Of a stretch of DNA of 64,000 nt, positions 14,646-33,094 are shown one piece after another. Positions within the stretch are counted from its first letter, which is position 1. Every line of letters begins with the position of its first letter. Location of the stretch: positions 1 through 64,000 of the forward strand of contig JAKQNP010000014.1 of the NCBI GenBank assembly GCA_029565675.1. The letters are read 5' to 3'. A program made the position numbers and the translations under genes. The notes under the pieces are model-generated. The model saw only the letters and a program-made list of their open reading frames with translations. It was not told where the DNA came from and did no database searches. Source of the stretch: a bacterium. GTDB taxonomy: Bacteria > Zhuqueibacterota > Zhuqueibacteria > Residuimicrobiales > Oceaniaggregativiventaceae.

Positions 14646-14716
14646 AATGTAACACCGAATTTCAGCCCTGATAGACGAAAAAGTTGATCGATGTTCAGAG
14701 GCATTTACACCACACA

Positions 14717-14870
14717 GAGCGGAGCGCGACCCCGCAGACCGCTGCTCTTGCGGTCGAGGAGGCGCGCGCAGCCGCCGCAGGACCCCGCAGGCGACGCGCC
14801 ATGGTCTTGTTCCGGCCGCTGCGCAGGTCGGTGGGCAGGCGCGTCGCCGAGGAGGCCGGAGGCGTCAGAG
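14717..14870. repeat. Structured GC-rich repeat R1, copy 1
   Basis: About 155 bp, related to 26472-26641 and 32933-33094. First hairpin: outer stem GCGCG (14724-14728)/CGCGC (14763-14767), inner stem GACCGC (14737-14742)/GCGGTC (14750-14755) closing TGCTCTT. A second stem of 11 perfect base pairs joins 14790-14800 with 14838-14848. Ends in GGCCGGAGGCGTC. Lies between the macro-domain gene and the M4 protease gene. Transcribed strand unknown. Confidence 0.75.
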
Positions 14871-14885
14871 CTATTTTTTGCCGGT

Positions 14886-14912
14886 ATAAAAACAGGCTGT
14901 TTGTCGACAGCC
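14886..14912 (-). terminator. Intrinsic terminator of the M4 protease gene
   Basis: On the minus strand GGCTGT-CGACAA-ACAGCC is followed by TGTTTTTAT, about 85 bp after the protease stop codon. Confidence 0.6.
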
Positions 14913-14995
14913 CGTTTGCAATGACCCCGCCGGGTTGCCGCCACACTCATTGAACACCTGGCACAGACATCCGGCGAAAGAACAATTAATTCAGG

Positions 14996-17900
14996 TCACT
15001 TGACCAGAATCATCTTTTGGCCGGCGCGAAAGCCGTTTTCCGTTTCCAGACGGCAGAAATAGACGCCGGAAGAGAGAGGCCGACCGTCGGTTGCGCTGGC
15101 ATTCCAGTTCACCTGATGGCTTCCGGCGGATTCGACGCCGTCCACCAGCACCTGCACCAACCGTCCCTGCATGTCATATACAGCAACTTTTATCCGACTT
15201 TGTTCGGGCAACGAGTAGGTGATGATGGTGCCGGCGTTGAATGGATTGGGATAATTGGCGTGCAAGGCGAATTCAGCGGGTTGGCTCGCCGCTTCGGGCT
15301 CGACCGCCAGATCGTAGTTGCCGCCGGTTACAAACCATTCCGGATAGCGCGCGCCGGTGGTGAGATTGAGAAGCGAAAAATTGAGCGAAGCGAGATCGAG
15401 AATCAGCAGTTTTTTATCGGAAAAGCGGTCGACGACGATCAGCTGGTCATCCGGAGAGAAGGACGGCCGCTCCACATCCCGGCCGGGAAACTGCAGAAAA
15501 AGATCCTGATCGACTTCAGCAAAATTGACGATATGGACATCCCAATACTCCGACTCGTCATCGATCATGCTGTAAGCGATGCGGTCGGGATCAGTGGAGC
15601 TGTACTGCACATTGCCGACGCTGATGCCGACAGGTTGAGCGGGCAACAGCGAGTAGATCTGCAGTTCATCGCCGGTGAAATCGATCTCCCCCATGCTCCA
15701 CCAATCGCGGACAGCCCCGGATGGCAGGGTCACCTGATTATACGCATCGAACGCCAGTTTGGGATATTTGGCATTGGGGGACCAATTGAGCACATCAGGA
15801 TATTGGATGGTCGAACTGCTGATGCCTTCCTGCGTGGAGGGCAAATCGAGCGTCAGATAATAAAGCTGGCCCGATATGAGCAGATAGATGTTGTTGTCAT
15901 TTTCATAACTGGAAGTAAAGGCAACGAACAGGCCGTCGCGCGAGATCGCGGCATTCCAGAGATCGCCGGGCGAATTGACATAGATATCGTCAAAGGTCTC
16001 AGTGGTTCCGGTCTGCATATTGGCTCGGGTAAAAACGCCGTTTTCGTCGATGAAATAGAGATAATTGCCGTCTGCAGTGGTGGAAAACTGGGTCCAATTG
16101 TAATCCTTGCTCTTGACGCGAACATTCAGAACATATTCTTTTTGGCTGTTCAAATCATAGAGCCCAACCCGCAGGTCATCGCGGACAAAAGCGATCCACT
16201 GGGTGCCGCCGGTGGTCGGCAAGACTTCATTATCACCGGCACCGCTGGGCGTCGTGCCGCCGCCACCACCGCTGCTGGTGGTGATTTTGACGGCATCGAA
16301 AGCAGATTTGACGGCCTCGAGTTCTGATCCGCTGCCGTACAGATCGATCGCGCATTGTTCGATCGCTTTGCGGGCGTCGATAAACTGCGATTGGCGCGTG
16401 AGATAAGAGCTCAGTGCCCGGTAGTAGATTTTTTCTGTTTTATCCTTGCCGATACGGTCTGCGATCAGGTAGGCGGCATAGCAGGGTATACCGCAATTGG
16501 TATGAACACCGCCGTAATCGCTGGAGGTATAGACATACTCGTCCATGGTCATGGGCAGCTGATCGAGCATGTTGCGGTTATGCGGATTGGATAGATCGCG
16601 CAGACCGCTGCCCATCCCGGGCAGCATGATGTCTTCGCCCATAATCCAATCATCGCGGTCGACCATGGCGCCAAAAAAATCGGAAAATGATTCATTAAGA
16701 GCGCCGGGTTGATCTTGATAAATCAGGTTGGCGGTGTATTCGGTGATCCCGTGGGTCAATTCGTGCGCGCAGATATCCAGCGCTTCGGCCAGAGACGAAA
16801 AGTAATCGCTGCCGTTGCCCCAGAAAATCGCTGAACCATTCCAGTAGGCATTGTCCATTGCCAGGCCACCTTCAGTCACATTGATCACTGTCATGATCGT
16901 CGATGCCCTTCCATCGATCGCCCGGCGGTTATGGGTGTTCTTGTAATAATTGTAAACGGTCGACAAATTGTGCATAGCCGAAACTGCAGCCCGATCGCCC
17001 CAGGAGGAGGGTGAAGTGGAAGTAACAAAGTAATATTGCGCCATTTCGGTGGGATCGTTGTTCTGCAAATCGATGACAAATAGACCGCCTGTCGGATCGT
17101 CGGGCAAATTTGCCGCGCCTCCCGAGAGCTCATTGAGATCGCTCAGCATATAATGGGTGCCGTCTTCCTCATAGGCGCGGAACGAGCGCGAGGAGCCGCT
17201 CAGGTCGATCCCTGAGGCATTGACGCTGCCTTCAGACATGGTGTTGCTGTATTTTTTCAGCACCTGTCCGGTTTCAATGTCGACCATAAGGGTAAACCAA
17301 TCGCGGACATTGGCGTAGAGTTCGACTTGCCAAACCAGATGGGGTCTATCCTGCTCGTCGATCCAGATCGTTTTCTTGCTGATCGGCTCGCTGAAACGAA
17401 GCAATTTGGTCATGTTCGCCGGAATGTCGTGCAGCAAATCGAGTTCAGCCAGATAGGCGCGGCAGACCTGCACAGCCTGATCGCTGTCGATTCCCTCTTT
17501 CCCGGGATCGATCCCGGCAGGCGTCGGCGCATAACGGCCATTCACCGTATAGACTTGATCGGTGGGGTCGATATGGACATAGAGCTCATTGGCCCATACC
17601 GGCACTCCCTGATAGGATTGCTGCAGGCGGAGATGGCGCATGCCCAGATCATCGGTCTCATGGCGAATCAGAGCAAATTCCGCCGCCGGCTGGTCGATTT
17701 TCATGGCTGCAGAAAAGGTCGAGAGCCAGCTCTGCGCCAACTGCAGATCGCGTTGAATCGGGCCATTTTCCGACACCGACTCCACCATCAAGGTTGAAAG
17801 TGGTACGGATTCAAGTTGGGCTGCACGGCCCAATTCGCCGCTGATAAAAAAGAGAGTGCCGTTTTCCGCCACCTGCACATCCCGCACCAACAGGCTTCGC

Positions 17901-18172
17901 TCGGCAGCCACAGCCAGGACATTTTCGGCAGGAGCAAGGGCTTGCTGGAACATGCCGTGGAACTGCTTTGTCGGCCGCGGCGCTGTGCTCTTTTTCCACA
18001 CCGGCCCGGCGCTGCGGAGATCCGGCAAAGAGCGAGTCTGTTCAGGCTTTTTTTGCGTCTTTTGATGATCAGCCCCCTTGCGCGCTGCCGCGGCAAGCGG
18101 TGCGACAGAGATGATCAAGGCGAGCAACAATGCAAAACGAAAATGTCTCAACTTTGTTTCTCCTTTACCCAT
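14996..18172 (-). CDS. Secreted M4 (thermolysin-like) metalloprotease with propeller and FlgD-Ig-like tail
   Basis: 1058 residues from the ATG at 18172. A TTG at 18151 with AAAGGAG just before it is the better-supported start and removes seven residues (GKGETK is encoded by the ribosome-binding region). Order: signal peptide; FTP and PepSY propeptide region (about 90-330); M4 catalytic domain with HELTH (470-474), NESFSD (E494) and GGVHTNCGIPC supplying the catalytic His; a Gly/Thr/Ser linker near 660; a beta-propeller-like region (about 670-960) with TolB-like strands; and a C-terminal FlgD-Ig-like domain beginning NYPNPFNAGT. All zinc ligands are intact. The usual SGIPN motif is CGIPC here, possibly a disulfide. 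Likely an exported, self-processing surface protease. Confidence 0.88.
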   Translation of the reverse strand: MGKGETKLRHFRFALLLALIISVAPLAAAARKGADHQKTQKKPEQTRSLPDLRSAGPVWKKSTAPRPTKQFHGMFQQALAPAENVLAVAAERSLLVRDVQVAENGTLFFISGELGRAAQLESVPLSTLMVESVSENGPIQRDLQLAQSWLSTFSAAMKIDQPAAEFALIRHETDDLGMRHLRLQQSYQGVPVWANELYVHIDPTDQVYTVNGRYAPTPAGIDPGKEGIDSDQAVQVCRAYLAELDLLHDIPANMTKLLRFSEPISKKTIWIDEQDRPHLVWQVELYANVRDWFTLMVDIETGQVLKKYSNTMSEGSVNASGIDLSGSSRSFRAYEEDGTHYMLSDLNELSGGAANLPDDPTGGLFVIDLQNNDPTEMAQYYFVTSTSPSSWGDRAAVSAMHNLSTVYNYYKNTHNRRAIDGRASTIMTVINVTEGGLAMDNAYWNGSAIFWGNGSDYFSSLAEALDICAHELTHGITEYTANLIYQDQPGALNESFSDFFGAMVDRDDWIMGEDIMLPGMGSGLRDLSNPHNRNMLDQLPMTMDEYVYTSSDYGGVHTNCGIPCYAAYLIADRIGKDKTEKIYYRALSSYLTRQSQFIDARKAIEQCAIDLYGSGSELEAVKSAFDAVKITTSSGGGGGTTPSGAGDNEVLPTTGGTQWIAFVRDDLRVGLYDLNSQKEYVLNVRVKSKDYNWTQFSTTADGNYLYFIDENGVFTRANMQTGTTETFDDIYVNSPGDLWNAAISRDGLFVAFTSSYENDNNIYLLISGQLYYLTLDLPSTQEGISSSTIQYPDVLNWSPNAKYPKLAFDAYNQVTLPSGAVRDWWSMGEIDFTGDELQIYSLLPAQPVGISVGNVQYSSTDPDRIAYSMIDDESEYWDVHIVNFAEVDQDLFLQFPGRDVERPSFSPDDQLIVVDRFSDKKLLILDLASLNFSLLNLTTGARYPEWFVTGGNYDLAVEPEAASQPAEFALHANYPNPFNAGTIITYSLPEQSRIKVAVYDMQGRLVQVLVDGVESAGSHQVNWNASATDGRPLSSGVYFCRLETENGFRAGQKMILVK

Positions 18173-18308
18173 AAAGTGTTGATGTCGAATAGCAGATCCT
18201 CTCCCCTTTGGAGGCGGTGCGTATGAACCGTTGCCACGCGTGTTGCGGAATTGTCTTCATTTTGACAAGCCGGCAGCGATTTGGCGGTGCCTGCCGGTAA
18301 AAATCACA

Positions 18309-18998
18309 TCAGAATCGACGGCGGTCCTGCTCGAAGAGAACACGACCGTCATGAGCATCGATAAAATAATCCCATTTGTTCATCCCGCCTTTCAGAGTGA
18401 CATACCAGGCCAAGCTGAGGTTTTTGTCCACAGGATAATAGACCAATTCAACACTGTCAACGGCTTGCATCTTGTGGCTGCTCCCCTTTTCCAGAGCAAG
18501 GTCAGTGGCTTGCTGAGCCGACAGGATGGAATCGCTGCTGGCGGCCTGGTTTGATGGTTCAGCGCCTGCCTCGCTGTCGTCTTTGACTATCGATGGATGA
18601 TACGATCCGTTGACCATATAGAGCCGAGCTTTGTCGTCAACATGCACGATCAATTCGTCGCCGTAGATCGGCACACCTCGATGCAGCCGTGCATAGCGAT
18701 AGTGGACGAATCCCAGTTCATCTTCATCGCTGCGCAGCAGGCGCAGTTCGCTGTCCGGAGCCAGCAGTTTAAATAATTCGGCATTTTCTGTAAAGAACAA
18801 CAGCAGCGGTTCAGGTCGATTTTCTTTTTTGACATTCGACAGATCAGCAAGCTGACCTCTGAGCAAGGTCGGTGTGGTGAGGTTGTCGTCCAGGGCAATT
18901 TCCAGATCCTGCCGTCCGGCAAGGCGCAGCGATGCCGGATCGATGCTCTGCGAACAATTCAGGCCGAGCAAGGCAGTCAACCACAACAGACTTTTCAT
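18309..18998 (-). CDS. Stand-alone M4-propeptide-like lipoprotein (FTP/PepSY)
   Basis: 229 residues from the ATG at 18998, with AAGGGGAG upstream; longer starts to 19205 would give an implausible N-terminus. A lipoprotein signal (LLGLNCSQ, Cys18) is followed by the FTP pattern (LRLLRSDEDELGFVHYRYARLHRGVPIYGDELIVHVD) and a PepSY-like end (AWYVTLKGGMNKWDYFIDAHDGRVLF). This matches the propeptide of the neighbouring protease, but the protein stops exactly where the catalytic domain would begin. Propeptides of this family inhibit and fold their enzyme, so a membrane-tethered inhibitor or chaperone for the neighbour is plausible; a truncated protease gene is the alternative. Confidence 0.78.
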   Translation of the reverse strand: MKSLLWLTALLGLNCSQSIDPASLRLAGRQDLEIALDDNLTTPTLLRGQLADLSNVKKENRPEPLLLFFTENAELFKLLAPDSELRLLRSDEDELGFVHYRYARLHRGVPIYGDELIVHVDDKARLYMVNGSYHPSIVKDDSEAGAEPSNQAASSDSILSAQQATDLALEKGSSHKMQAVDSVELVYYPVDKNLSLAWYVTLKGGMNKWDYFIDAHDGRVLFEQDRRRF

Positions 18999-19055
18999 GC
19001 GAATTGCACTCCCCTTTGTAAGATTTGCTATTTGATTTGCAGAGACAACCCGGTC

Positions 19056-19079
19056 GTGTCCCGTCGTCAGACGGGACAC
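19056..19079. repeat. REP-like palindrome R3, copy A
   Basis: GTGTCCCGTC (19056-19065), loop GTCA, GACGGGACAC (19070-19079): a perfect 10-bp stem. Same design as 56292-56325 with a compensatory pair change. Confidence 0.75.
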
Positions 19080-19186
19080 CGCTGATAACAACCCAAAGTT
19101 AGAAGTAAAATTGGAAAAGAAAAAGGAAAAAACAAGACATGAAAATCGGCCTTCCGACTTGCGCTTCCTGCCAACTTTACGATTAT

Positions 19187-19229
19187 TTAACATGGTCTTC
19201 ATCACCCGTTAACATTGCTGCTTTATATT
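19187..19229 (+). promoter_or_regulatory. PhoB-like box and promoter P1
   Basis: Three 7-bp elements at 11-bp period: TTAACAT (19187), TTCATCA (19198), TTAACAT (19209), followed by TATATT at 19224-19229. The 11-bp periodicity is that of PhoB half-sites replacing a -35 box. The same arrangement recurs 101 bp downstream. Confidence 0.65.
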
Positions 19230-19257
19230 TTGCTGTAACAAGCCCAACATAAGAAAA

Positions 19258-19265
19258 AAGGAGGT
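19258..19265 (+). other. Strong Shine-Dalgarno-like sequence without an obvious gene
   Basis: AAAAGGAGGTGAG is a near-perfect match to the 16S anti-SD but is followed only by a possible GTG mini-ORF of about ten codons that ends inside the second Pho box. It lies in the transcript of P1 only. Confidence 0.3.
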
Positions 19266-19287
19266 GAGAAAAATACTTTACCCAAAC

Positions 19288-19330
19288 TTAACATGAGCTT
19301 CATCAACAGTTAACATTCGTCAACTATATT
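19288..19330 (+). promoter_or_regulatory. PhoB-like box and promoter P2
   Basis: TTAACAT (19288), TTCATCA (19299), TTAACAT (19310), then TATATT at 19325-19330: same elements and same 15-bp offset from last repeat to -10 as in P1. The start codon of the porin gene is 53 bp further on. Confidence 0.7.
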
Positions 19331-19382
19331 GAGCCGTGCCGATTGTAAAATGGCCGACAAAACCTTTTTTGCTGGAGGAAAA

Positions 19383-20531
19383 ATGAAAACCACATCAATG
19401 CTGCTTATTCTGATCGTTTTTGCCTTGTCAATGACGGTCAGCCATGCCCAGACGAAATCGAAAATCGATGGCGTCGTGTTTGCCGACTATTATTACAACC
19501 TCGACAACAACAATCCGAAAGAGATCGATCGCAATGCTTTCCAATTGCGCCGCGTCTATTTTACCTATGAGAACAACATTACCGACGCCATCAAGCTGCG
19601 TTTCCGGCTCGAGTCAGAGCACGGCAGCTATGGCAGCACCAGCAAAATCAACCCGTTCGTCAAACATGCCTTTATCGAATGGGGCAATCTCCTTCCCAAA
19701 CACAAGCTCTATATCGGCATTGCGGAGACCAATGCTTTCAAAAACAGCGAAGATTTTTGGGGCTATCGGTCTATCGAAAAAACGATCATGGATCTGAACA
19801 AAATCAGTTCTTCTGCTGACATGGGTTTGGGATTGAAAGGCGACCTCAATCCCTTGCTCCACCATTGGTTGACCGTGATGAACGGTACCGGCTATGGGGC
19901 GTCAGAAGGCGATCGCTTCAAGAAAATCGGCTATGCCCTGTGGCTCACCCCTGCCAAAGGTTTGATGATCGAAGGCTATGTCGATTACGAAAAACAGGAT
20001 CCAGCTGAGCTGCAAACCGCTGCGGTCATGAGCGCCGGCAAAGATTATCTCGGTTCCACAGGTTATATGACGTGGAAGGCCTTTATTGGTTATGATCAGC
20101 CGCGTTTCACAGTCGGCGCCGAAGTTTTTCAGCGCACCAATCGAGAGTCTGGCATCGAAAATGGCCAGATCGCTGAAGGCAATTTGGTCGGTTATGACAA
20201 GGCAGACGTGGTCAAAGGAGGCTATTCGTTCTTTGGTTCGTTGATCACTCCCATTCCGAGAGTGAAAGCATATGCCCGCTATGACGTCTATGATCCCAAT
20301 CAGAGCGAAACGGTTTACACCAAATTTGCCAACGGCACTCTGAGTGGCAACGGTGCAGATGACGAAAACTCCCTGATCATCCTTGGACTGGACTACATTC
20401 CCGAGGCCGGCATTCACATCATGCCCAACGTATTGATCAAACAATACACCAAGGCGGACAGCAAAACCGACCTCACCGGCCGTCTGACTCTTTATGCCAA
20501 ATTCAACTCCGGCAAACTGGTCGGCGAATAA
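19383..20531 (+). CDS. Outer-membrane porin, probably phosphate-selective
   Basis: 382 residues from the ATG at 19383, preceded by GGAGGA; an upstream in-frame start would add residues before the signal peptide. Signal peptide (about 1-22, cut after SHAQ), then alternating hydrophobic/aromatic beta-strands typical of a 16-strand barrel, with DGVVFADYYYNLD and RLRFRLESEHG-like strands near the start and a final strand ending YAKFNSG. First gene after the tandem Pho promoters and directly before pstS, so an OprO/OprP-like phosphate porin is the natural inference. Confidence 0.8.
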   Translation: MKTTSMLLILIVFALSMTVSHAQTKSKIDGVVFADYYYNLDNNNPKEIDRNAFQLRRVYFTYENNITDAIKLRFRLESEHGSYGSTSKINPFVKHAFIEWGNLLPKHKLYIGIAETNAFKNSEDFWGYRSIEKTIMDLNKISSSADMGLGLKGDLNPLLHHWLTVMNGTGYGASEGDRFKKIGYALWLTPAKGLMIEGYVDYEKQDPAELQTAAVMSAGKDYLGSTGYMTWKAFIGYDQPRFTVGAEVFQRTNRESGIENGQIAEGNLVGYDKADVVKGGYSFFGSLITPIPRVKAYARYDVYDPNQSETVYTKFANGTLSGNGADDENSLIILGLDYIPEAGIHIMPNVLIKQYTKADSKTDLTGRLTLYAKFNSGKLVGE

Positions 20532-20644
20532 CCGTCAGCCATGATTGCATAAATGAACAAAAAAACAACCAAGCACCCGTGAATAAACATTTCCATTGCA
20601 AGGCGAATCATTCGCAAACAATCGAATATAAAGGAGAACCCATC

Positions 20645-21529
20645 ATGAACAAACGACTGTTCGTCATCCTCTTGGCAGTATTGGGAGTGACCACATCTGC
20701 AGTTTCGCAGAATTTCATTCAGATCAAAGGCTCTGACACTTCGGTCAATCTGGTGCAGCGTCTGGCCGAAGTCTATATGGAAAAAGATCCGAAAACAGCG
20801 ATCGCGGTGACCGGCGGCGGGTCGGGTGTCGGCATCGCCGCCCTGATCGCCAACAAGGTCCAAATCGCCGATGCCTCGCGGCCGATGAAAGAAAAAGAAT
20901 ACGCGGCAGCCAAGGAAAATGGCGTGCTGGCTGTCGAAATCGCAATTGGCATTGATGCCCTTTCGGTGATTGTCAATCACGACAATCCGATTCAATCGCT
21001 GAGCATGGCACAGGTCGGCGCAATCTTTCGCGGCGAGATCAGCAACTGGAAAGATCTGGGCGGACCCAATCTGCCGATATCGCTTTATGGGCGGCAGCCC
21101 AGTTCCGGAACCTATGTCTTCTTTCAAGAGCACGTGCTCGGCAACAAGGACTATTCGGCAAAAATGAAACAGATGAACGGTAACGCCCAGATCATCGAAG
21201 CGGTCAGCGCCGACAAAGCGGCTATCAGCTATTGCGGTGTGGGATATGTTTTTGCGGAGAACGGCGAGGTCCATTCCGGCATTAAAGTTCTGGACATCGA
21301 CAACGGCAACAAAAATCCGGTCAGTCCGTTGCTCAAAGAGAATATCACCAATGGCAAATATCCCATTGCCCGCGCTCTGTATCAGTACACCAACGGCAAA
21401 CCCAAGGCCAATGTAAAGAGTTTCGTCGGTTTTATTTTGAGCCCGGACGGACAGAAAATAGTCGAAGAAATGGGTTTCTACCCTGTATCCGGAGTCTATC
21501 TGGATAACAACAAAAAAGCGGGATTCTAA
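20645..21529 (+). CDS. pstS: Phosphate ABC transporter, periplasmic binding protein
   Basis: 294 residues from the ATG at 20645, with AAAGGAG at 20630-20636. Signal peptide without a lipobox (cut near SAVSQ). Phosphate-binding loops of the PstS family are seen: IKGSDTSV, GGGSGVG, ASRPMK and YGRQPSSGTYVFF. It captures phosphate in the periplasm and delivers it to PstC/PstA. Followed by pstC, pstA, pstB and phoU in the classical order. Confidence 0.95.
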   Translation: MNKRLFVILLAVLGVTTSAVSQNFIQIKGSDTSVNLVQRLAEVYMEKDPKTAIAVTGGGSGVGIAALIANKVQIADASRPMKEKEYAAAKENGVLAVEIAIGIDALSVIVNHDNPIQSLSMAQVGAIFRGEISNWKDLGGPNLPISLYGRQPSSGTYVFFQEHVLGNKDYSAKMKQMNGNAQIIEAVSADKAAISYCGVGYVFAENGEVHSGIKVLDIDNGNKNPVSPLLKENITNGKYPIARALYQYTNGKPKANVKSFVGFILSPDGQKIVEEMGFYPVSGVYLDNNKKAGF

Positions 21530-21641
21530 GGACAACGCCAAAACCTGCAAAGATCATGGCGGGAAATCCCATTGATTGCGAAATGGCAAAAAGCGCTGGT
21601 CGACTGCCGGCGCTTTTTGCCCATTGCATGGAATAAAACAT

Positions 21642-22544
21642 ATGAGCAAAATCAACAGCCGCACCCTGGGAAGCCGGCTGAAAGAACAAGCCATCGAAAA
21701 ATTCTTTCTTCTCAACGGTTTGCTCGCCGTGCTGGTGTTGCTTGGCATTTTCATCCTCTTGCTGCTGCAAGCCTGGCCGGCAGTCAAAGAGCTGGGAGTG
21801 AAAGCGTTTGCCGAGAGCCGATGGGATCCGACTTCGCCAGTGCAAGAGCGCTACGGCATTGGTGCGCTGTTGGTGGGCACACTGATGGTTTCGATCGGCG
21901 CGATGGCCATCGCGGTGCCGATCGGCATCGCCACCGCGGCTTGGCTTGCAGATGTGGCAGGAAACCGTTTGCGGGAAATCATCAAGCCCGTTATTGAAAT
22001 TCTGGCGGCGATCCCGTCAGTGGTTGTTGGCTTTCTTGGCTTGGTCGTCCTCAATCCTCTTCTGGCCCGTTTGTTCCACACTTCGAGCGGATTGAATGCC
22101 GTCAATGGCTCGATTTTGCTGGCGATCATGGCTTTGCCGACGATCATCAGCATTTCCGAGGATGCCATCATCTCTGTGCCGCAGGAACTCAAGAGCGCCT
22201 CGCTGGCGCTGGGCGCCAACAAATGGCAAACGCTGATCCGGGTGACCATCCCTTCCGCTCTTTCCGGAATCGTGGCGGCGATCATGCTCGGTCTGGGGCG
22301 CGCCATTGGCGAAACCATGACCGTGCTGATGGTTTGCGGCAATGCCGCAGCCATGCCGCACAGCTACCTCGATCCGGTGCGGACCATGACCGCCACCATC
22401 GCGATTGAACTGGGAGAAACGGTGCAAGGCGGCACCCACTATTACTCGCTGTTTGTGATCGCTTTTGTCCTTTTTATACTGACCTTTCTGGTGAATCTGG
22501 TCAGCGATCTGGTTTTGCAGCGTTTTCAAGAGGTGAGGCGATGA
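21642..22544 (+). CDS. pstC: Phosphate ABC transporter permease PstC
   Basis: 300 residues with six membrane helices and the EAA-type coupling motif (ELKSASLALGANKWQTLIRV). The start at 21642 gives the expected length; an in-frame TTG at 21576 is less likely. Forms the channel with PstA. Its stop overlaps the pstA start as ATGA. Confidence 0.94.
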   Translation: MSKINSRTLGSRLKEQAIEKFFLLNGLLAVLVLLGIFILLLLQAWPAVKELGVKAFAESRWDPTSPVQERYGIGALLVGTLMVSIGAMAIAVPIGIATAAWLADVAGNRLREIIKPVIEILAAIPSVVVGFLGLVVLNPLLARLFHTSSGLNAVNGSILLAIMALPTIISISEDAIISVPQELKSASLALGANKWQTLIRVTIPSALSGIVAAIMLGLGRAIGETMTVLMVCGNAAAMPHSYLDPVRTMTATIAIELGETVQGGTHYYSLFVIAFVLFILTFLVNLVSDLVLQRFQEVRR

Positions 22545-23413
22545 AAATAGAGGTGCGCAAAATAGAGCAAGAACTGGGATTTTTGTTGCTCCGGATCGCG
22601 GTCGTGGCAGTGTTGTTTATTGTCTTCTATATCATCTGGGACATTTTATCCAAAGGGTCTGGTGTCGTCAGCTGGGAGTTTCTCACCGCCAAACCGCGCA
22701 AGGGCATGACTGAAGGCGGTATCTGGCCGGCTATCGTCGGTACTTTTTGGGTCAGCCTGGTCACCGTTGTCTTTTCTGTACCGGTCGGAGTTTTCACAGC
22801 GATCTATCTCAACGAGTATGCGATTCAGGGACGACTGGTCCGGGTAATTCGTCTGGCGATCCGCAACCTTTCAGGCGTGCCGTCGATTGTGCATGGTCTA
22901 TTTGGATTTGCTTTATTTGTCCTGATGTTGAATTTGGGCCTTTCGATCCTGTCAGCCGGTTTGACTCTGGGGTTGCTGACTTTGCCCTGGACAATCACCG
23001 CCAGCGAAGAGGCGCTTAAAACCGTGCCCCTGTCGTATCGCGAGGGATCGCTGGCGCTCGGCGCGACCAAATGGCAGACAATCCGGACCAATGTTCTGCC
23101 CTATGCCCTGCCGGGCATGCTGACCGGCACGATACTGGGTCTGGCGCGGGCCGCGGGTGAGACGGCGCCCATTCTTTTCACCGGCGTGGCCTTTTTCTGG
23201 CCGCATCTCGAGTCGTTTCCCAAGGTGCTGGACAGCCAATTCATGGCTCTTCCCTATCATCTTTTCATCATGGCTACCCAACACCACGAGATTGTCAAAG
23301 TGCGGCCGCTGGCCTATGGCACTGCTCTGGTGCTGGTCTTGCTGGTGTTGTTGATGAATTTATCGGCTACCTGGATACGATACCGTTTCCGCAAAAAATA
23401 CAAACGTGTTTGA
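22541..23413 (+). CDS. pstA: Phosphate ABC transporter permease PstA
   Basis: 290 residues, six membrane helices, coupling motif YREGSLALGATKWQTIRT near residue 165. Starts on the ATGA overlap with pstC, implying translational coupling. Partner of PstC in the inner membrane. Confidence 0.94.
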   Translation: MKIEVRKIEQELGFLLLRIAVVAVLFIVFYIIWDILSKGSGVVSWEFLTAKPRKGMTEGGIWPAIVGTFWVSLVTVVFSVPVGVFTAIYLNEYAIQGRLVRVIRLAIRNLSGVPSIVHGLFGFALFVLMLNLGLSILSAGLTLGLLTLPWTITASEEALKTVPLSYREGSLALGATKWQTIRTNVLPYALPGMLTGTILGLARAAGETAPILFTGVAFFWPHLESFPKVLDSQFMALPYHLFIMATQHHEIVKVRPLAYGTALVLVLLVLLMNLSATWIRYRFRKKYKRV

Positions 23414-23440
23414 TCCACGGCAACACAAAAGGAAATCCTC

Positions 23441-24199: not shown

Positions 24200-24235
24200 T
24201 CTGGAATCGCTTTTATCCTCTAAAAAGGAAGATGT

Positions 24236-24892: not shown

Positions 24893-24935
24893 ATCGGCAT
24901 AAATAGCGTTAGCCGTTCGATGGAGGAAAAGTCGA

Positions 24936-26402
24936 ATGTTCCACCCCTCGTTACGCGTAAAACTGACTCTGGTCCATCTCTTGCTGATCGCCGCCTTGAG
25001 CCTGGCGGTCGGGATTTTTACTCTGGCAAGCATGCAACGTTTTTTCAAACAACGGCTTGCCCAAAATATGGAAACAGAGCTGCAACAAGTCCATTACCTG
25101 CTGCAGCATACAGCGCTCGGCAGCATCGCTGAGCCGATGCATTATCAGGAATTGAGCCGGTATGCGAACACCAGCCATTTTCGTCTGACCTTGATCGACT
25201 CCAGCGGCGTCGTGCGCTTCGATTCGAAAATCAGCGTCGACTCGCTTGCCTTGGTCGATAATCACCGCAACCGCCTCGAAGTGCGCATGGCGCTCAACGA
25301 AGGATTCGGCACGGACCAGCGTTTGAGCTCGACCTTGAACGAGCCGTTCTATTACGGTGCATTGCGCATCAAACACAACTACCTGCCGCAAACGAAAGGC
25401 GAAATGGTTCGTTTCATTCGCATCGCTTTGCCGCTCGCGGAAATCCAACGGCAGTTCCAAGACCTGCGCCGCCAGATTGTCATCGCCGGATTGGCGGCAT
25501 GGTTGTTGATCGGTTGTTTCAGCTTCTGGCTTGCCGGTCGGCTCTCCTACCCGATCCAAAAACTGGCTGCGGTTGCAGAAAAAGTCAGACGCGGCGACCT
25601 GGAAGTCAATTTTCAACACCGCAGCCGCGATGAGCTGGGAGAACTCGCCGACCACCTCAATCAGATGCTCAACAAATTACGCCGGGACATGGTGCAGCTT
25701 CGCAAGCTCGAACAGGTGCGCAGTCAATTCCTAGGCAATGTTTCCCACGAATTGCGCACGCCGGTTTTTACTCTGCTCGGTTATCTGGAAACCTTGCTCC
25801 ACAGCCATTTTGAAAATGCAGAACAGCAACAAGAATTCATTGGCAAAGCCTATCAACAATCGTCGCGATTGAACGATCTTCTCTCCGACCTGATCGACAT
25901 TTCCAGAATCGAATCGGGCGAGATGAAGATGGCCATTCGATCTTTTGATTTGCATGCTTTTCTGGCCAACCAGTGTGATGAACTGCAGAAAAAAGCGGAA
26001 CAGCAACACATCGCTCTATCTTTCGCGAACGTTGAGGCCAAAAACCAGGTTTGGGTCAAAGGAGATCCGGAGCACCTCAGCCAGGTTATCACCAATCTGG
26101 CGGAAAATGCCATCAAGTACAATGTTGAAAACGGCACAGTGGAGATCGGGTATCGCGAGGCCGGAGAAGGCGTGGAGGTCTATGTGCAGGACACCGGACG
26201 CGGTATACCGGAAAACCACCTGCCGCGCATTTTTGAACGTTTTTACCGGGTGGACAAAGAGCGCTCGCGCGCGGTCGGCGGCACGGGCCTGGGGTTGGCG
26301 ATTGTCAAACACATCATCGAAGCGCACGGTGGACAGGTACAGGTGCAGAGCCAGGTGGGCAAAGGCTCGCGATTTTATTTTCATCTGAGCAGAGCAAAGT
26401 AA
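24936..26402 (+). CDS. PhoR-like sensor histidine kinase
   Basis: 488 residues: membrane helix (about 10-30), periplasmic domain (about 30-180), second helix (about 182-205), HAMP, HisKA with VSHELRTP (His271), and HATPase with NLAENAIKYN, DTGRGIPENHLPRIFERFYR and GGTGLGLAIVK. Placed at the end of the pst-phoU operon, so PhoR function is the obvious inference. No PhoB response regulator is encoded within the window, which is unusual because phoB and phoR are normally adjacent. Confidence 0.9.
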   Translation: MFHPSLRVKLTLVHLLLIAALSLAVGIFTLASMQRFFKQRLAQNMETELQQVHYLLQHTALGSIAEPMHYQELSRYANTSHFRLTLIDSSGVVRFDSKISVDSLALVDNHRNRLEVRMALNEGFGTDQRLSSTLNEPFYYGALRIKHNYLPQTKGEMVRFIRIALPLAEIQRQFQDLRRQIVIAGLAAWLLIGCFSFWLAGRLSYPIQKLAAVAEKVRRGDLEVNFQHRSRDELGELADHLNQMLNKLRRDMVQLRKLEQVRSQFLGNVSHELRTPVFTLLGYLETLLHSHFENAEQQQEFIGKAYQQSSRLNDLLSDLIDISRIESGEMKMAIRSFDLHAFLANQCDELQKKAEQQHIALSFANVEAKNQVWVKGDPEHLSQVITNLAENAIKYNVENGTVEIGYREAGEGVEVYVQDTGRGIPENHLPRIFERFYRVDKERSRAVGGTGLGLAIVKHIIEAHGGQVQVQSQVGKGSRFYFHLSRAK

Positions 26403-26471
26403 GGAATACAGCAGGGTTTGGCAAAAAGAGTTAAAAGGTAAAAAGTCAAAAGTTGAAGGTTTAAAGCTTAA

Positions 26472-26641
26472 TCCAGCGGAGCGCGATCGCCGAGTCCGCT
26501 TCTTTTGCGGACGAGGAAGCGCGCAGAGCTCCGCGCAGGATCCCGGCCCCGCTGCGCAACCAATCACATGCCAGATGATCTTGATCATTTGCACCAAACA
26601 TGCGCCTGGGCTTAAAAGCGGGGCCGGAGCCGGAGCGGCTC
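26472..26641. repeat. Structured GC-rich repeat R1, copy 2
   Basis: First hairpin: outer GCGCG (26481-26485)/CGCGC, inner GTCCGC (26494-26499)/GCGGAC (26507-26512). Second stem: CGGCCCCGC (26543-26551) pairs perfectly with GCGGGGCCG (26619-26627), enclosing a segment with a small GATGATC-TTGATCATT palindrome. Ends GGAGCCGGAGCGGCT. Between the histidine kinase gene and the next gene. Confidence 0.75.
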
Positions 26642-26957
26642 AATAAAATCCTCTACGAATCCGGCAGAATCATTGGAAAACACTCAAAATATTTCTCGAA
26701 CTAAAACCGAGAAACAAATTTCTCTGTACCTCCAAAACAGAGAAAAATCCTGCTGCAACAAAATCTTGCAATTTTGACAAATTCGATTGTATATTAAAGC
26801 AGGAAAACGCTTTTCGCGACCGGCATTGCCGATTGTGCAACAGATATTTGTCTGATCTTGGGGCATTATTGCTATTGTTATCAATTTTTCCACCATTTCA
26901 ACTCAACACAGGGTATGACTCATACAATCACGATAGTGTATAAATTAGGAGCTGGCG
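26642..26957. other. AT-rich intergenic stretch
   Basis: No gene seen. TTGACA at 26774-26779 and TATATT at 26790-26795 are present but only 10 bp apart, so I do not call a promoter. Confidence 0.4.
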
Positions 26958-28073
26958 ATGAGCACAACAAAGCGTTTACCGGAGCTGAAATTCTGGTTGG
27001 CTGCTGTGTTGCTCGGGTGCATTTTGGCATCAACCACCGTTGCTGCGCCAACAGCCAAAAGAAACGCAGCTGCCAAGTCGGGTATCGTTCCTGACCCATT
27101 GGTTTTCGTCAAACAGGTCGAGCCCAATGAAAAAGCTTTCACCATCCTCGTTCCCAAAGGCTGGATCTGCGAAGGAGGCAGTTTTTTTGTGGACGGCAAC
27201 CAGGTCAATGGCTGGGCGAATTCAATCGAGACGAAATTCAATTATGTGGTCAAAAAAGATCAGGCCGGAACCGTCATGTTGCACTGGCTGCCCAATTACT
27301 ACTATTGCGATGGTCGCTATTCAGTGACGAGACAATACGGAATGATGCAGGATGGGACCTATTACAATGGCATGATGGTCATGAACAGATATCCCGCGCA
27401 GGATTTTTTGCTCTACATCGTGTTTCCACAATTGCGCCCGCAGGCTGCCGATGTAGAGGTGGTCGAAGTCACCCCGCTTCCGGAACTGGCGGCAAAGTGG
27501 AAACGTCAGGCGGTTCTGCCCAATCTGAACTATGATGCGGTTCTGGTCAAAGTGCGCTATACGGAAAACGGTGCCCAGTATCAAGAAGAGATGAAGAGCG
27601 TCATTGAAGATTTTGGTGCCGACGGTCAGGGCATGTGGCAAAATCGCGAAACGTTCCTCTACCGGGCTCCGGCCACTCAATTCAAAGAATGGCAAGGCGT
27701 ATGCAGCGCCATCTATTCATCCATCCATTTTGATCCGCAATGGGTGGCAGCCACCTCCAGAGCGGCCTCGCAGCGCATGCGAAACGCGCGTGCCACACAG
27801 GAGTATGTCAATCGCGTCGCCAATGAAATCGTCGACAATCGTCGACAGGTCAACGCAGAGATCCGCCATGAGGACTATTTGTTTCTCAGCGGGCAAAACG
27901 ATTACGTCAACCCCTATACCAACGAAGTCGAGCAGCGCCCGGACGGCTGGAAATACCATTGGCAAAACGGCAACGGCGAAATCATCATGACCAACGATGA
28001 TAGCTATGATCCCAACCGCGATCAGCACATTCGCAGAACCGATTACAAACGCAGCCAGGTGCGGCAGCGTTGA
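26958..28073 (+). CDS. Secreted protein of unknown function
   Basis: 371 residues with a signal peptide (about 1-30). No family recognised. The middle is rich in aromatic residues (HWLPNYYYCD, TYYNGMMVMNRYPAQDF) and the C-terminal 80 residues are polar, with Asn, Asp, Gln and Arg. The opening after the signal (FTILVPKGWICEGGSFF) resembles surface-exposed beta-rich domains that begin with 'IPxGW'. An AGGAG site precedes the ATG. Stands alone. Confidence 0.65.
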   Translation: MSTTKRLPELKFWLAAVLLGCILASTTVAAPTAKRNAAAKSGIVPDPLVFVKQVEPNEKAFTILVPKGWICEGGSFFVDGNQVNGWANSIETKFNYVVKKDQAGTVMLHWLPNYYYCDGRYSVTRQYGMMQDGTYYNGMMVMNRYPAQDFLLYIVFPQLRPQAADVEVVEVTPLPELAAKWKRQAVLPNLNYDAVLVKVRYTENGAQYQEEMKSVIEDFGADGQGMWQNRETFLYRAPATQFKEWQGVCSAIYSSIHFDPQWVAATSRAASQRMRNARATQEYVNRVANEIVDNRRQVNAEIRHEDYLFLSGQNDYVNPYTNEVEQRPDGWKYHWQNGNGEIIMTNDDSYDPNRDQHIRRTDYKRSQVRQR

Positions 28074-28121
28074 GCGTAAGCCTGCAATCCAATGCGGACG
28101 CCGAAAAGGATGAAAGTGTTC

Positions 28122-28583
28122 TCATTTGGCTCTGTGCACCAACACCCGCTCCACATCGTCGCGCCCCACAAATCGAATGTGCAGGATTTTTTTGCCGAGC
28201 ACATAAGAGATCGAGTGATTGAGGTGATCGCCATATGCAACACTCGGTGCAGAGGGACCGCAGCTTTTTTCCGTGCAGCCGATGGCCATTGAAAGAGAGA
28301 ATCCATCACCGATTTGATATTCACCCTCACAGGTGTTGCACGCATCCATGGCTTCGACTGTACCATCTGCCCTGAACCGGACCCAATAGGGCCATCCATC
28401 GTTCGCTTCCAGAAGAACAGAGCCGTTTGTCGCTGCAACTGCTTCGAGTTCCCATTTTGTATCGGTAAACTGTGGGTTGCTGTCGTCTTCACCGACATTC
28501 ACCCCGAAAAACTCACAGCCGGCTGGAAGCAAACAAATTACCAGCAGGAATTTTAAGAGATTTTGTTTCTTTTCATCACTCAT
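28122..28583 (-). CDS. META-domain (HslJ-like) lipoprotein
   Basis: 153 residues from the ATG at 28583 with GGAG upstream; the upstream extension to 28856 overlaps the next gene and is not credible. Lipobox LLPAGC (Cys near 21). The body, DTKWELEAVAATNGS ... GWPYWVRFRADGTVEAMDACNTCEGEYQI, is the pattern of META/HslJ domains, small beta-rich envelope proteins tied to stress or antibiotic tolerance. Convergent with the preceding gene. Confidence 0.7.
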   Translation of the reverse strand: MSDEKKQNLLKFLLVICLLPAGCEFFGVNVGEDDSNPQFTDTKWELEAVAATNGSVLLEANDGWPYWVRFRADGTVEAMDACNTCEGEYQIGDGFSLSMAIGCTEKSCGPSAPSVAYGDHLNHSISYVLGKKILHIRFVGRDDVERVLVHRAK

Positions 28584-28656
28584 CGCACATCTCCGTCGAT
28601 GCAAAGGAAAGTCTCGATAAGGTCGTGCTTTTTTTTTCTCAAGTCTGAATCGCTTT

Positions 28657-30276
28657 TTATTTCCTGCCGATCTCAGGATTTTTGGCAAGCCCATAAAAAA
28701 ACAAAGTGCTGAATCCGCGGTATTCGCCGTACCCTTCCGGCCGATAACCGGAGGCGTTGAGGACTTTCTCGGTGCAGGGCATATCGAGATCAAGACGTTG
28801 GTGATAATGGTTGAACATCGATTCCCAGATCGGCAAACGCAAACAATTGGTTTCAACTACCCTCTTTGCTGTGCCTTCGATGCCCTGCAAAAGCCGGTTG
28901 CTCTCAGCTGAATAGAGATCGAGACCCTGGTTCCAGGCCGTCTCGGCGAATCCCGCCAAAGCCCCGATGCCCATTTGCTCATGTCCCTGATCCCGCAGTG
29001 TCTCCTGCGTCGTACCGTCCGGCCGCACATAATAGGACATTCGGCCGTTGCCGACGCCGTGCAGATAATAATGCACCGCATGATCGAAGATCAAAGCATC
29101 ATCCAGATAGATGCCCATCGAAATCAACCCCTGACCGATGAGGGCATCCCAGTTGCCATTATAAGCAGGGACAAAATCCCGCAACAACGGCCATAAAACA
29201 CTGCGAAGCCAGTGAGCAAAATTTTCCTGTTCCGCCGGCTGCCATCCCGAATTGCTGTATTTCAGCAGTTCGGCGGCATTGCAGAACTGGATGCAAGCCG
29301 TCGCACCGGACAGTTTGGCATTTCCGCCGGTCAATGCTTTGTTGGTTTCTGACCAGGCATTGAGGATCTCGATTGCTTTTTCCGCAAACCGGCTGCTGTC
29401 GGTAAGCACCCACAACTGCGCATTGGAAAAAGCAGCTCGCGCATCGCGCGCCAGTTCGATATATCCTCTGCTCTTGCTGTAACCATAATAACCGGAAAAG
29501 GTCAAGGTATCCATTGGCGTTGGCCGATAGTTGCTTTGTGCATTTTCGCTGCTCCGTGCCGCTGCAAAGGCCTCGCGCCAAGGCGAAGCGTCAAGGCTAA
29601 TCTTTTCCCGGACAAAATCGATCTGCTCTTTGGTGATCAAAATACCTGGATGGGTGAACGAAGGTGGCGCGCAGGCTGGCGGGACCGTTTGTTGCAGAGT
29701 CAGGCCGCTGACCATAAATCGCGGTTTCAGATTGTCATAATCCTCCACACTGGCGAAAGAGAGTTCGGTGTCTTGTTGCTCAGCCGTAAAACACAGAGAG
29801 ATATAATAATCGCCTTTTGCTGATTTTTGCGCAACATAATCGGTTAAATCTATTTCGTAGAGCTTGTACGGATCATCGATCGCCAAAGTGAAAAGAGGGG
29901 TTGAAGCGATTTCCGGCCGCTGATCCCAGGTGATCGTGGATTCGTCCCATTCGTGAAATAAAACTGGATAGACCGAAAGCGGACCAGGCGAAACCACTTC
30001 CTTTGTCTGAATCCGCAACACTGCACTATCGATCCGGGAAAAACCGGGGATAAAAAATTTGAGATAGGCTATGGATTGCCCATGTGCAACCGTCAGTGTT
30101 TTGTCCTGGCCGAAATTTATCGAAGCCGCATTGCCGGCATTGACCGGTGCATCGTCGTTGGGTTCGACGCCGATCGAAACTTGTGCAGGCTTCCACATCT
30201 GGCGGTTGCGGTTGCAGGCACAAAACGCAGCCATCACTGCAATCAACAGAATGGTGGTTTGGATTGTTTTTTTCAT
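28657..30276 (-). CDS. Lipoprotein with DNRLRE-like module and alginate-lyase-like domain
   Basis: 539 residues from the ATG at 30276. Lipobox AFCAC. Residues about 30-200 resemble a DNRLRE/CBM96-type module (IAYLKFFIPGFSRIDSAVLRI, FHEWDESTITWDQRP). The rest resembles an alginate-lyase-type alpha/alpha toroid: NGNWDALIGQG and RDQGHEQMG are the likely active-site segments. Probably cleaves an acidic polysaccharide outside the cell by beta-elimination; substrate not deducible. Neighbours a ZIP transporter and another helical sugar-active lipoprotein, but no SusC/D pair or regulator is present. Confidence 0.75.
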   Translation of the reverse strand: MKKTIQTTILLIAVMAAFCACNRNRQMWKPAQVSIGVEPNDDAPVNAGNAASINFGQDKTLTVAHGQSIAYLKFFIPGFSRIDSAVLRIQTKEVVSPGPLSVYPVLFHEWDESTITWDQRPEIASTPLFTLAIDDPYKLYEIDLTDYVAQKSAKGDYYISLCFTAEQQDTELSFASVEDYDNLKPRFMVSGLTLQQTVPPACAPPSFTHPGILITKEQIDFVREKISLDASPWREAFAAARSSENAQSNYRPTPMDTLTFSGYYGYSKSRGYIELARDARAAFSNAQLWVLTDSSRFAEKAIEILNAWSETNKALTGGNAKLSGATACIQFCNAAELLKYSNSGWQPAEQENFAHWLRSVLWPLLRDFVPAYNGNWDALIGQGLISMGIYLDDALIFDHAVHYYLHGVGNGRMSYYVRPDGTTQETLRDQGHEQMGIGALAGFAETAWNQGLDLYSAESNRLLQGIEGTAKRVVETNCLRLPIWESMFNHYHQRLDLDMPCTEKVLNASGYRPEGYGEYRGFSTLFFYGLAKNPEIGRK

Positions 30277-30337
30277 CTGAATACTCTTTGGTTTAAATTG
30301 AAGGTTGATCGCCATCACATAGTGTACGAGTTCAGAT

Positions 30338-31144
30338 TCAAGCAAAAAGAACCAGGCTCAGAGCCATAACCATCATACCTGCGATCAAGCCGGCGATGGA
30401 AACGTGGTGTTTGCCATATTCTTCAGCTGTCGGCAGCAATTCATCTAGTGAAATATAAACCATGATGCCGGCGACAGCGGCAAAGACCACTCCAAATGTC
30501 GCTTCGCTGAAGAATTGTTTCAGAAGGAAAAAACCAACCACAGCACCGACCGGTTCTGCAAAACCGGAAAGGAAAGAATAGAAAAACGCCCGCTTTTTGC
30601 TTCCTGTTGCATAGTAAATGGGGACAGAAACGGCAATACCTTCCGGTATATTGTGGATCGCTACAGCGACAGCAATGCTGATACCCATTGCCGGATTCTG
30701 CAAAGCTCCGATGAAGGTCGCCAACCCCTCAGGAAAATTGTGAATGGCGATCGCCAACGCCGAAAAAACGCCCATGCGCATCAATTTGTTTTTCCTGTCT
30801 TGTTCGAATGCATCGCTTTTGATAACTTTCACCTCGTGTGGATTCTCGAACGATGGGACCATTTTATCGATGAGGGCAATGACACCCATGCCAACAAAGT
30901 AGGCGAGTACGGTGATCCAATACCCCTGTTTGGTGCCATAGATCACGACCAGAGAATCTTTGGCTTTGGCAAAGATCTCAACCAATGAAACATAGATCAT
31001 CACGCCGGCTGAAAATCCCAAAGCTCCGGCAAGAAATTTGTGATTAAAGCTTTTCGAGAAAAATGCCATCACGCTGCCGACTCCTGTAGACAAGCCGGCA
31101 AATACGGTCAGTGCAAAAGCAAAGAGAAAGCTGTTTTCCTCCAT
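30338..31144 (-). CDS. zupT: ZIP family metal transporter (ZupT-like)
   Basis: 268 residues, eight membrane helices, and the two metal-site motifs HNFPEGLATF and HNIPEGIAVS. The variable loop between helices 3 and 4 is short and charged. Imports zinc and other divalent metals into the cytoplasm. AGAGGAG lies upstream of the start. Ends 62 bp before the lyase lipoprotein start on the same strand. Symbol assigned by similarity to ZupT. Confidence 0.9.
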   Translation of the reverse strand: MEENSFLFAFALTVFAGLSTGVGSVMAFFSKSFNHKFLAGALGFSAGVMIYVSLVEIFAKAKDSLVVIYGTKQGYWITVLAYFVGMGVIALIDKMVPSFENPHEVKVIKSDAFEQDRKNKLMRMGVFSALAIAIHNFPEGLATFIGALQNPAMGISIAVAVAIHNIPEGIAVSVPIYYATGSKKRAFFYSFLSGFAEPVGAVVGFFLLKQFFSEATFGVVFAAVAGIMVYISLDELLPTAEEYGKHHVSIAGLIAGMMVMALSLVLFA

Positions 31145-31337
31145 TAGAATTGACTCCTCTGTTCAGGCAAATTCAGTAACGCCTTTGCTCCAACCATACG
31201 ATCGTTTTGTTTGTCCAATTAACAAGGTGCAAATCTACTCGGATGCGGTGGTGTTCAACCCTTTGCCCAAATAAAAAACGGCCTGGGCGACAGGTGTGGC
31301 AAGGGTGGTTCTGCAGCAGCGGATCAGAAACCCGCCC

Positions 31338-32666
31338 CTATTCGATCATCGATGTTGCCAGCAAATGATTCGCCAACACGATGCCGATCGGCGCATTGGT
31401 CCAGCCGCTGTAGATGCTGCCGGCGCCGCCCTCGATGCGATCACCGCCGCCCCAGCTTCTGGTTTGCATGTTGTACATGCCGCGCCAGCAGCCGCGAAAA
31501 GCCAGAGAAGAACTTGTATCCTGGATGTCGATCACCAAATTCAGCAACTTTTGATAAGCCTCCTGAAATTGCGGCCGTTCGGAAACCGCCAGCAAATTCT
31601 GAAACGCGAGCAAACTCCAATTGACCGTATAAATCATGTCGACAAAATGGGGCCCGATCGGCGCCTCATAGTGTTCGGCGGGTATGTTGCCGTACACGGG
31701 ATCCATTTTGGCGACGAGACGATCGGCGAACGTTTCAGCGACCGTCAGGAAAAGCGTGTTTTTGGGAAAGACTTTGGCACAAGTCGATGCACCGATCACG
31801 GCATAGGCGCATTCACTGGCGTTGAAACGCTCGACGTTTTTTTCGAGATAGATATGATATCGTTGCACGACAGCCTCGACCGGAACATCTGTGAGCAGTC
31901 CGGCGCGCCAGGAAAATGCCAATGCCGCACAGGCAAGGGATCCCCAATGCGGCAGCCAGATGTTGCCCTGCCAGATCCCATGCGGATCAACACAATCGCC
32001 CTGGCCCTCTTTTCCCGCCAAAAGGGTGCGGTTAAAACCCTCGAAAAAGCAAAGGCTCAGCTGTTCGGCATAGTGACGCATGTTGAAGCGATGGGCGATT
32101 TCCGGAAATCGCTGTTCGATAATTAGGGGAACGATCAAATTCCACGAATGGTCGTCGAACCAGAGATAGAGATCCTTGCGAATATTCGACCAGTTCCAGG
32201 TTCCGACCAGAGTATCCGGATGCCAACGTGTCAACAAGGCGCTGCGGCAGTAGAGATATTCCAAAATATTTTCGGCAGTGGTCGATGGTTCCAGATCGAG
32301 TTCCCTGGCAAGCAGAAACAAGAGCGCGGTTTGAAAATTGCAGTCCGGCCGTCTCGCTTCGATCACGGTCCAGTCCTTGTAGTTTGTCCATGAATTGAAA
32401 GACTGCAAAAGAGCGGACAAGGATTCCTGGTCTGGCGGGACAAAAATCCGCTCTGCGACACCCCATCGCCCGTCATTCGGAAGCATGATGGATGAATTTT
32501 TGAACCAGGAGAGGTTATGCTGCAAGGCGGTGCGGGCGCGATCGGTTTGGTGAAGCGGGTGCATTGTTGATTCAGAACCATTCGACCGGCAGGCGAGCCA
32601 CAATGCAGCTGCGGCGCACAAGAAGAAGAGCATTCCTGACAGGCGGCGCGGGCAAGGATCGATCAT
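31338..32666 (-). CDS. Lipoprotein with (alpha/alpha)6 hairpin-type fold, probable glycan-active enzyme
   Basis: 442 residues. Lipobox LWLAC (Cys26). Repeating Trp-rich helical segments (RWHPDTLVGTWNWSNIRKDLYLWFDDHSWN, GNIWLPHWGSLACAALAFSWRAG, IYTVNWSLLAFQNLLA) and the ending GGGDRIEGGAGSIYSGWTNAPI are typical of six-hairpin glycosidase-like or heparinase-like toroids. Exact family not recognised. Same orientation as the lyase two genes on, so co-regulated glycan breakdown is possible. Confidence 0.68.
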   Translation of the reverse strand: MIDPCPRRLSGMLFFLCAAAALWLACRSNGSESTMHPLHQTDRARTALQHNLSWFKNSSIMLPNDGRWGVAERIFVPPDQESLSALLQSFNSWTNYKDWTVIEARRPDCNFQTALLFLLARELDLEPSTTAENILEYLYCRSALLTRWHPDTLVGTWNWSNIRKDLYLWFDDHSWNLIVPLIIEQRFPEIAHRFNMRHYAEQLSLCFFEGFNRTLLAGKEGQGDCVDPHGIWQGNIWLPHWGSLACAALAFSWRAGLLTDVPVEAVVQRYHIYLEKNVERFNASECAYAVIGASTCAKVFPKNTLFLTVAETFADRLVAKMDPVYGNIPAEHYEAPIGPHFVDMIYTVNWSLLAFQNLLAVSERPQFQEAYQKLLNLVIDIQDTSSSLAFRGCWRGMYNMQTRSWGGGDRIEGGAGSIYSGWTNAPIGIVLANHLLATSMIE

Positions 32667-32932
32667 TGTGCTTCCTTTCAGAAAATGGGTGATTGTTATC
32701 CAGCAACTACAGTATAAGAAATCATCAGATAAATTGCATCACTATTCTGGCATCGACAGGCGAATACTGTCACCACCAACAACAGAAAAACAGGATAAAA
32801 TGCCCATCAATACGATAGAGGCTGCAGAACGGGAGCAAAGAATAACGGCGCTCTCTCCATCTGGATCTGGTGTTCCATACTCAGGTTGGATTGTTTTCGC
32901 CCCCGCGGGGATGAAAAGAGTTTCTCTCCAAA

Positions 32933-33094
32933 ATCCAGCGAAGCGCGATCGCCGAGTCCGCTGCTCTTGCGGACGAGGAAGCGCGCGGGCCCGCGGAGGA
33001 TCCGGAACCGCTGACATTGCATACGGAAGTTGTCCTTGTCATCCCCTGCGATCAACCATCAAGGCCCCAATGCGGGGACGAAGCCGGAGCGGAC
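32933..33094. repeat. Structured GC-rich repeat R1, copy 3
   Basis: First hairpin: outer GCGCG (32943-32947)/CGCGC, inner GTCCGC (32956-32961)/GCGGAC (32969-32974) closing TGCTCTT. The second stem position is kept only approximately (CCGC..CATT with AATGCGG). Ends GAAGCCGGAGCGGAC. In the large gap between the glycan-active lipoprotein and tRNA-Pro. Confidence 0.75.

Follow-up and report, generated by a model that had tools for sequence, protein, structure and literature searches.

R1 copies in the 64 kb window

The window, meaning the whole 64 kb stretch of DNA that was analysed, carries three plus strand copies of a repeat that we call R1. Copy 1 (14718-14864) has a subfamily A scaffold, and copies 2 (26475-26638) and 3 (32937-33092) belong to subfamily B. 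All three are present where the original prediction placed them, and a 44 nt pattern taken from the 5' part of R1 matches the window three times but is absent from 100 shuffles of the window. The predicted size of approximately 160 nt holds for the window copies, but not as a limit for the family, since relatives reach approximately 260 nt.

Copy 2 is located between a gene ending at 26402 and a gene starting at 26958, which we take, from reading the sequence, to encode a kinase and an mnmA-like protein, respectively. Copy 3 adjoins a tRNA-Pro gene. More generally, R1 copies lie between genes, at most overlapping short ORFs of doubtful status, and have no constant orientation to their neighbours; three rows of the gene context listing are false regex matches. 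None of the loci read holds a gene-bearing R1.

Each copy comprises two domains. In copy 1, matched by the covariance model at 14710-14784, the outer stem of domain 1, P1, pairs GCGCG (14724-14728) with CGCGC (14763-14767). It encloses the socket-1 hairpin (14737-14755), in which GACCGC (14737-14742) and GCGGTC (14750-14755) flank the loop TGCTCTT. Domain 2 (14773-14864) has an outer CGCC/GGCG stem (14773-14776 with 14861-14864) around an 11 bp socket-2 hairpin, GGCGACGCGCC/GGCGCGTCGCC (14790-14800 with 14838-14848). In copy 2, domain 1 (26481-26524) has the P1 stem GCGCG/CGCGC (26481-26485 with 26520-26524) and the socket-1 stem GTCCGC/GCGGAC (26494-26499 with 26507-26512), and domain 2 (26531-26638) has the outer stem CCGC/GCGG (26531-26534 with 26635-26638) and a 10 bp socket-2 hairpin, CCGGCCCCGC/GCGGGGCCGG (26543-26552 with 26618-26627). 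Domain 1 of copy 3 is intact, with P1 at 32943-32947 and 32982-32986 and GTCCGC/GCGGAC at 32956-32961 and 32969-32974. Its socket-2 hairpin is decayed, and of the second stem only the 4 bp outer CCGC/GCGG (32991-32994 with 33089-33092) remains intact.

These pairings bear out the predicted outer GCGCG/CGCGC stem and the six-pair inner stem, which is GTCCGC/GCGGAC in copies 2 and 3 versus GACCGC/GCGGTC in copy 1, as well as the 7 nt loop (TGCTCTT or TTCTTTT) and the shared 3' end CCGGAG-GGC/GCGG. The long second stem was predicted at 11 bp in copy 1, as found, and at 9 bp in copy 2, where we find 10 bp; about its decay in copy 3 the prediction was silent.

Two other repeats occur in the window. 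A tandem array of 5.8 units of 84 bp (33413-33901) lies beside the tRNA-Pro(GGG) gene (33320-33395, minus strand). Read on the minus strand, each unit contains a stretch resembling the 5' half of tRNA-Pro, GCGCAGCGCAG...AGCGCACTTGACTGGGG, followed by the palindrome AAGTCAGTTTACTGACTT. The local alignment score between the unit and the tRNA-Pro 5' half is 57, with a maximum of 53 in 1000 shuffles, and the array is absent from the tRNA loci read in two related genomes (G001 and G003). An interspersed repeat of approximately 100 nt, GAAGCACCAAATCTCACAGAAAATCAATCTGATGGCAATACACAGAGGGTGAAAAC..., is found at 7636-7732, 52433-52563 and 63145-63283 (minus strand) and is unrelated to R1.

A covarying two-hairpin scaffold found in KSB1

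In the copies parsed, three short conserved linkers hold two hairpins, arranged in tandem and pointing the same way, in the order C1, socket-1 hairpin, C2, socket-2 hairpin, C3. Linker C1 reads (A/T)GCGGAG-NNNNN-A(C/T)C, where NNNNN is a stem strand, C2 reads N'N'N'N'N'-NN-AGCC-NNNN-GNAGGATC, and C3 reads AGCC-GGA-N'N'N'N'. Socket-1 hairpins span 28-109 nt and socket-2 hairpins 23-113 nt, giving elements of 145-260 nt; in relatives the first hairpin can reach approximately 105 nt. The genome that contains the window has two socket-1 subfamilies, ACCCCGCAGGCC and ATCGCCGAGTCC, and two domain 2 subfamilies, GCCGCC...GGCG and GCCCGC...GCGG. In genome G001 these types are found in all combinations (e.g. 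L081, L083 and L085), and therefore the two domains reassort.

Covariation cannot be established from the three window copies alone; the proof comes from 84-114 copies in other genomes. P1 was tested in 84 distinct elements, using anchors outside the stem. Eight different perfect 5 bp stems were found (GCGCG, GGGCG, GCGAG, GTGCG, AGGCG, GCACG, ACGCG and GGACG, each with its complement). Perfect stems occur in 46 of the 84 elements, whereas 2000 block shuffles gave 14.6 on average and never more than 24. In domain 2, both sides have changed in 11 of 17 pairs, amounting to 124 both-side-changed cells; shuffles give 43.7, and sliding the pairing gives no more than 28. As related R1 copies are not independent, none of these shuffle counts is a probability. 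Its outer stem takes four perfect forms, CCGC/GCGG, CGCC/GGCG, CGAC/GTCG and CGGC/GCCG. It should be noted that the alignment used, A2, had a pairing threshold applied to the hairpin arms, from which the outer stem was exempt; with this filter off, 54 of 62 C2-C3 pairs still have at least 7 of 10 Watson-Crick pairs. The inner stem of domain 1 covaries as well. The prediction that structure is conserved while sequence changes is thus upheld in P1, domain 2 and the domain 1 inner stem, and it persists in the larger alignment. R1 is a genuine repeat: dispersed, modular, built of two hairpins and covarying.

BLAST and pattern searches found more than 25 R1 places in the 4.43 Mb genome (64 contigs) to which the window belongs, and 28 were found with a covariance model trained on 26 copies. 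A search of relatives with this model gave 10 other genomes with 1-28 copies each. Altogether, R1 is present in 12 of 82 genomes of the KSB1 phylum, 11 by the model and one (G002) by BLAST; the model missed the latter because its first hairpin is long. The genomes found by the model form two separate groups, one from the genus, family and order of the window genome (G000, G001, G003, G007 and G015) and one from family f10 of the same class (G039, G062, G036, G031, G059 and G061). When 84,980 species were scanned for the pattern, at least 117 stretches were obtained. Among the matches listed, true scaffolds occur only in records titled 'candidate division KSB1', and the other stretches are without linkers C1 and C3. 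Within the searches made, R1 is confined to KSB1. A phage or plasmid origin was also considered, but R1 gave no match in the plasmid or phage collections, and three pattern matches in IMG/VR lack C1/C3 and are due to chance.

Exchange of hairpins and turnover of loci

The hairpin caps, exchangeable modules of approximately 20-110 nt, are shared between the two sockets. Of 85 socket-1 modules, 32 have a socket-2 homologue on the same strand and none on the opposite strand (E <= 1e-4), a few of these entries being overlapping parses of one element. In one element (L151) the two hairpins are 84% identical. A CCCGCACCTATCGC...GCGATAGGTGCGGG stem is present in both sockets in G002/G003, as is a CCCGA...TCGGG module in family f10. 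At a locus common to G062 and G039 (L315/L337), both sockets hold wholly different hairpins. Hairpin modules moving alone, as free-standing units, were sought with the HP2 module, and the matches, in four genomes, are R1 scaffolds except for one 20-base match. Derivatives without the second hairpin exist (C56:119039, C56:122996 and C4:3074) and have deletions between short direct repeats.

The conserved linkers could act as recombination sites that move whole hairpin caps between sockets and copies. If a dedicated enzyme actively exchanged the caps, each genome would carry a combinatorial set of folded single-strand cassettes, DNA or RNA, on a two-socket scaffold, and R1 would stand for a new, KSB1-specific class of either modular mobile elements or multi-copy structured RNAs. 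We regard such a dedicated exchange system as rather improbable.

Template switching generally perfects long hairpins, and R1 could in principle be inert, spread only by replication slippage and ectopic gene conversion, its arms kept complementary by quasi-palindrome correction and not by selection. The modules replaced at L315/L337, the internal deletions between short direct repeats and tandem partial duplications on contig C9 are in line with such a process. It does not readily explain new positions in gene-tight regions, such as that of copy 2, nor why three separate short stems were each compensated independently around conserved unpaired linkers, and we consider it very improbable.

R1 varies in presence and absence at orthologous sites. 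At the site of copy 2, the two flanking genes nearly abut in G001, G002 and G003, and R1 is absent. The tRNA-Pro gene and the neighbouring gene of copy 3 are present in G001, again with no R1 there. G062 and G039 belong to one genus and are 93% identical in one shared 1.6 kbp stretch. Several R1 loci are common to both, but the G039 locus orthologous to an R1 on contig C213 of G062 holds unrelated sequence and no R1. As copies 2 and 3 are absent in relatives and genomes of the same genus differ, R1 is a gained-and-lost dispersed element and not a fixed RNA gene. A joined-flank search for exact empty sites in G039 corresponding to G062 insertions found no contiguous junction. Comparison of R1 flanks revealed 5' AAATTN and 3' GGCCCNAAA tendencies with no consistent duplication. 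The termini given here are therefore approximate.

The original prediction took the conserved structure as the hallmark of a selected RNA, with a DNA cruciform as its alternative. On this view R1 would encode a structured RNA that has become multi-copy in the genome, acting in trans as a small RNA or together with a partner protein, with selection on its plus strand transcript. The strong covariation agrees with this, although DNA-hairpin elements would show it likewise, and so does the two-domain layout with purine-rich internal loops. Selection on the plus strand RNA would be expected to tolerate G·U better than A·C. We count 18 distinct contexts with G·U among imperfect pairs versus 10 with A·C, an excess that is not significant (p = 0.18). 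The remaining 53 mismatches are of other kinds, with many G·A and other purine mismatches. The prediction recognised no known RNA family, and an Rfam search agrees: tRNA alone scored above threshold, and the best sub-threshold match, in copy 2, was 16.2 bits (threshold 50). Together with the wholesale replacement of hairpin caps, the dispersal of R1, its absence at orthologous loci and its lack of a fixed gene context or orientation, these observations leave the selected RNA without support and make a structured RNA fairly unlikely. A DNA hairpin or cruciform repeat fits better.

Relation of R1 to known repeats and its probable nature

Genes encoding Y1 transposases (PF01797) are found in 70 of the 82 KSB1 genomes, with and without R1. 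They occur in 11 of the 12 R1-bearing genomes and are equally common in genomes lacking it. None of 22 Y1 loci scanned has R1 on both sides of the gene. At one locus (L239) R1 is found on one side only, the Y1 element apparently being inserted at the R1 5' end, and the Y1 loci on contigs C49 and C32 have no full R1.

REPs are palindromes of 20-50 nt tagged by GTAG (PMC8266576) or alternatively CGTC (PMC3733652), and RAYT genes are reported to be REP-flanked without exception (PMC2817692). R1 differs in being 145-260 nt long, in carrying GCGGAG/GCGAGG in C1 and no GTAG/CGTC, and in not flanking a RAYT gene at the 22 loci. We nevertheless asked if R1 might belong with the REP/BIME elements, as an atypical member or a degenerate descendant moved by a RAYT (TnpA-REP), with GGAG replacing GTAG. 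A GGAG-like tetranucleotide 5' of each hairpin, the same-orientation, intergenic, dispersed hairpins and the Y1 genes in nearly all R1-bearing genomes point that way. Such an origin is nonetheless unlikely, given that R1 falls outside the REP definition in length and tag, that no Y1 gene examined is R1-flanked, and that Y1 presence fails to separate genomes with R1 from those without. R1 may still work in a similar way to REPs, despite lacking their tag and their flanking of RAYT genes.

Compared with REP, BIME and REPIN elements, R1 is likewise intergenic, hairpin-forming, dispersed and non-autonomous, with compensated stem mutations, but its tandem hairpins share one orientation and it has approximately 20-30 copies, not hundreds. 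BOX elements of Streptococcus pneumoniae have a boxA-boxB(n)-boxC architecture. Like that family (PMC3049150), R1 is small, modular, interspersed, structured and intergenic with variable middle modules; it differs in its two sockets with wholly different exchangeable caps and compensated stems, its occurrence in another phylum and the lack of a database match. With MITEs such as ERIC, Correia and RUP it shares being short, non-coding, dispersed and different between close relatives, but no terminal inverted repeats, target duplications or parent transposon were found among the loci compared. The prediction had named a database match to a known transposon end or MITE as an outcome that would refute it; no plasmid or phage record matches R1, but its behaviour is MITE-like. 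Integron attC sites are also imperfect palindromes with structure conserved over sequence and a variable terminal structure, but the R1 linkers lack RYYYAAC/GTTRRRY boxes and the copies are scattered. An attC-like cassette array was considered and rejected, as no cassette genes lie between neighbouring copies on contig C29.

We lean towards reading R1 as a MITE/REP-like DNA element, interspersed, non-autonomous and specific to its lineage, the folded strand of which is presumably recognised by a trans-acting enzyme. R1 is probably a small passenger mobile element, which does not move itself, rather than an RNA gene. The copies would spread when their folded strand is recognised by a DNA enzyme acting in trans, which may be an HUH (Y1) single-strand transposase or a different recombinase of the host, although recombination alone, with no transposase, may also account for the spread. 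Recognition would presumably take place via the conserved purine-rich linkers and the internal loops (GGA/GGA and GA-type). Because it would read only shape and linkers, stem and loop sequences could drift freely as long as pairing is restored.

With age, small bacterial repeats usually lose their shape while their sequence is retained. In R1, shape is kept across two separate KSB1 groups while nearly all sequence has been replaced and hairpins have been shuffled between two positions. We suggest that R1 is a natural system for testing whether elements are recognised by shape when folded and not by sequence, and that its covariation can serve as a model of the contacts made by the recognising enzyme. 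R1 is also a caution against taking strong covariation in a repeat, by itself, as evidence of an RNA gene.

Other hairpin repeats accompany R1 in these genomes. At L062 (G000:C32:1-1782), a Y1 gene at the contig start is followed by several GTCCCGTCAGGGACGAAATATTTATAG palindromes, a family other than R1, and the two are likely a REP/RAYT pair of this genome. Tandem GC-rich palindromes, ATCATCCCGCAGGGACAAGCCCTGCGGTGATGG and relatives, are abundant at L033 (G000:C29:600-1030) and in several R1 flanks, often directly upstream of R1, forming mosaic clusters of different hairpin repeats. At L041 (G000:C9:33000-33340) and the end of L040, a unit of approximately 85 nt, GCGGCCCCAAAAAGCAAATGC...AAATCGC, is repeated in tandem downstream of subfamily B copies, and therefore R1 may form the centre of a more extended array.
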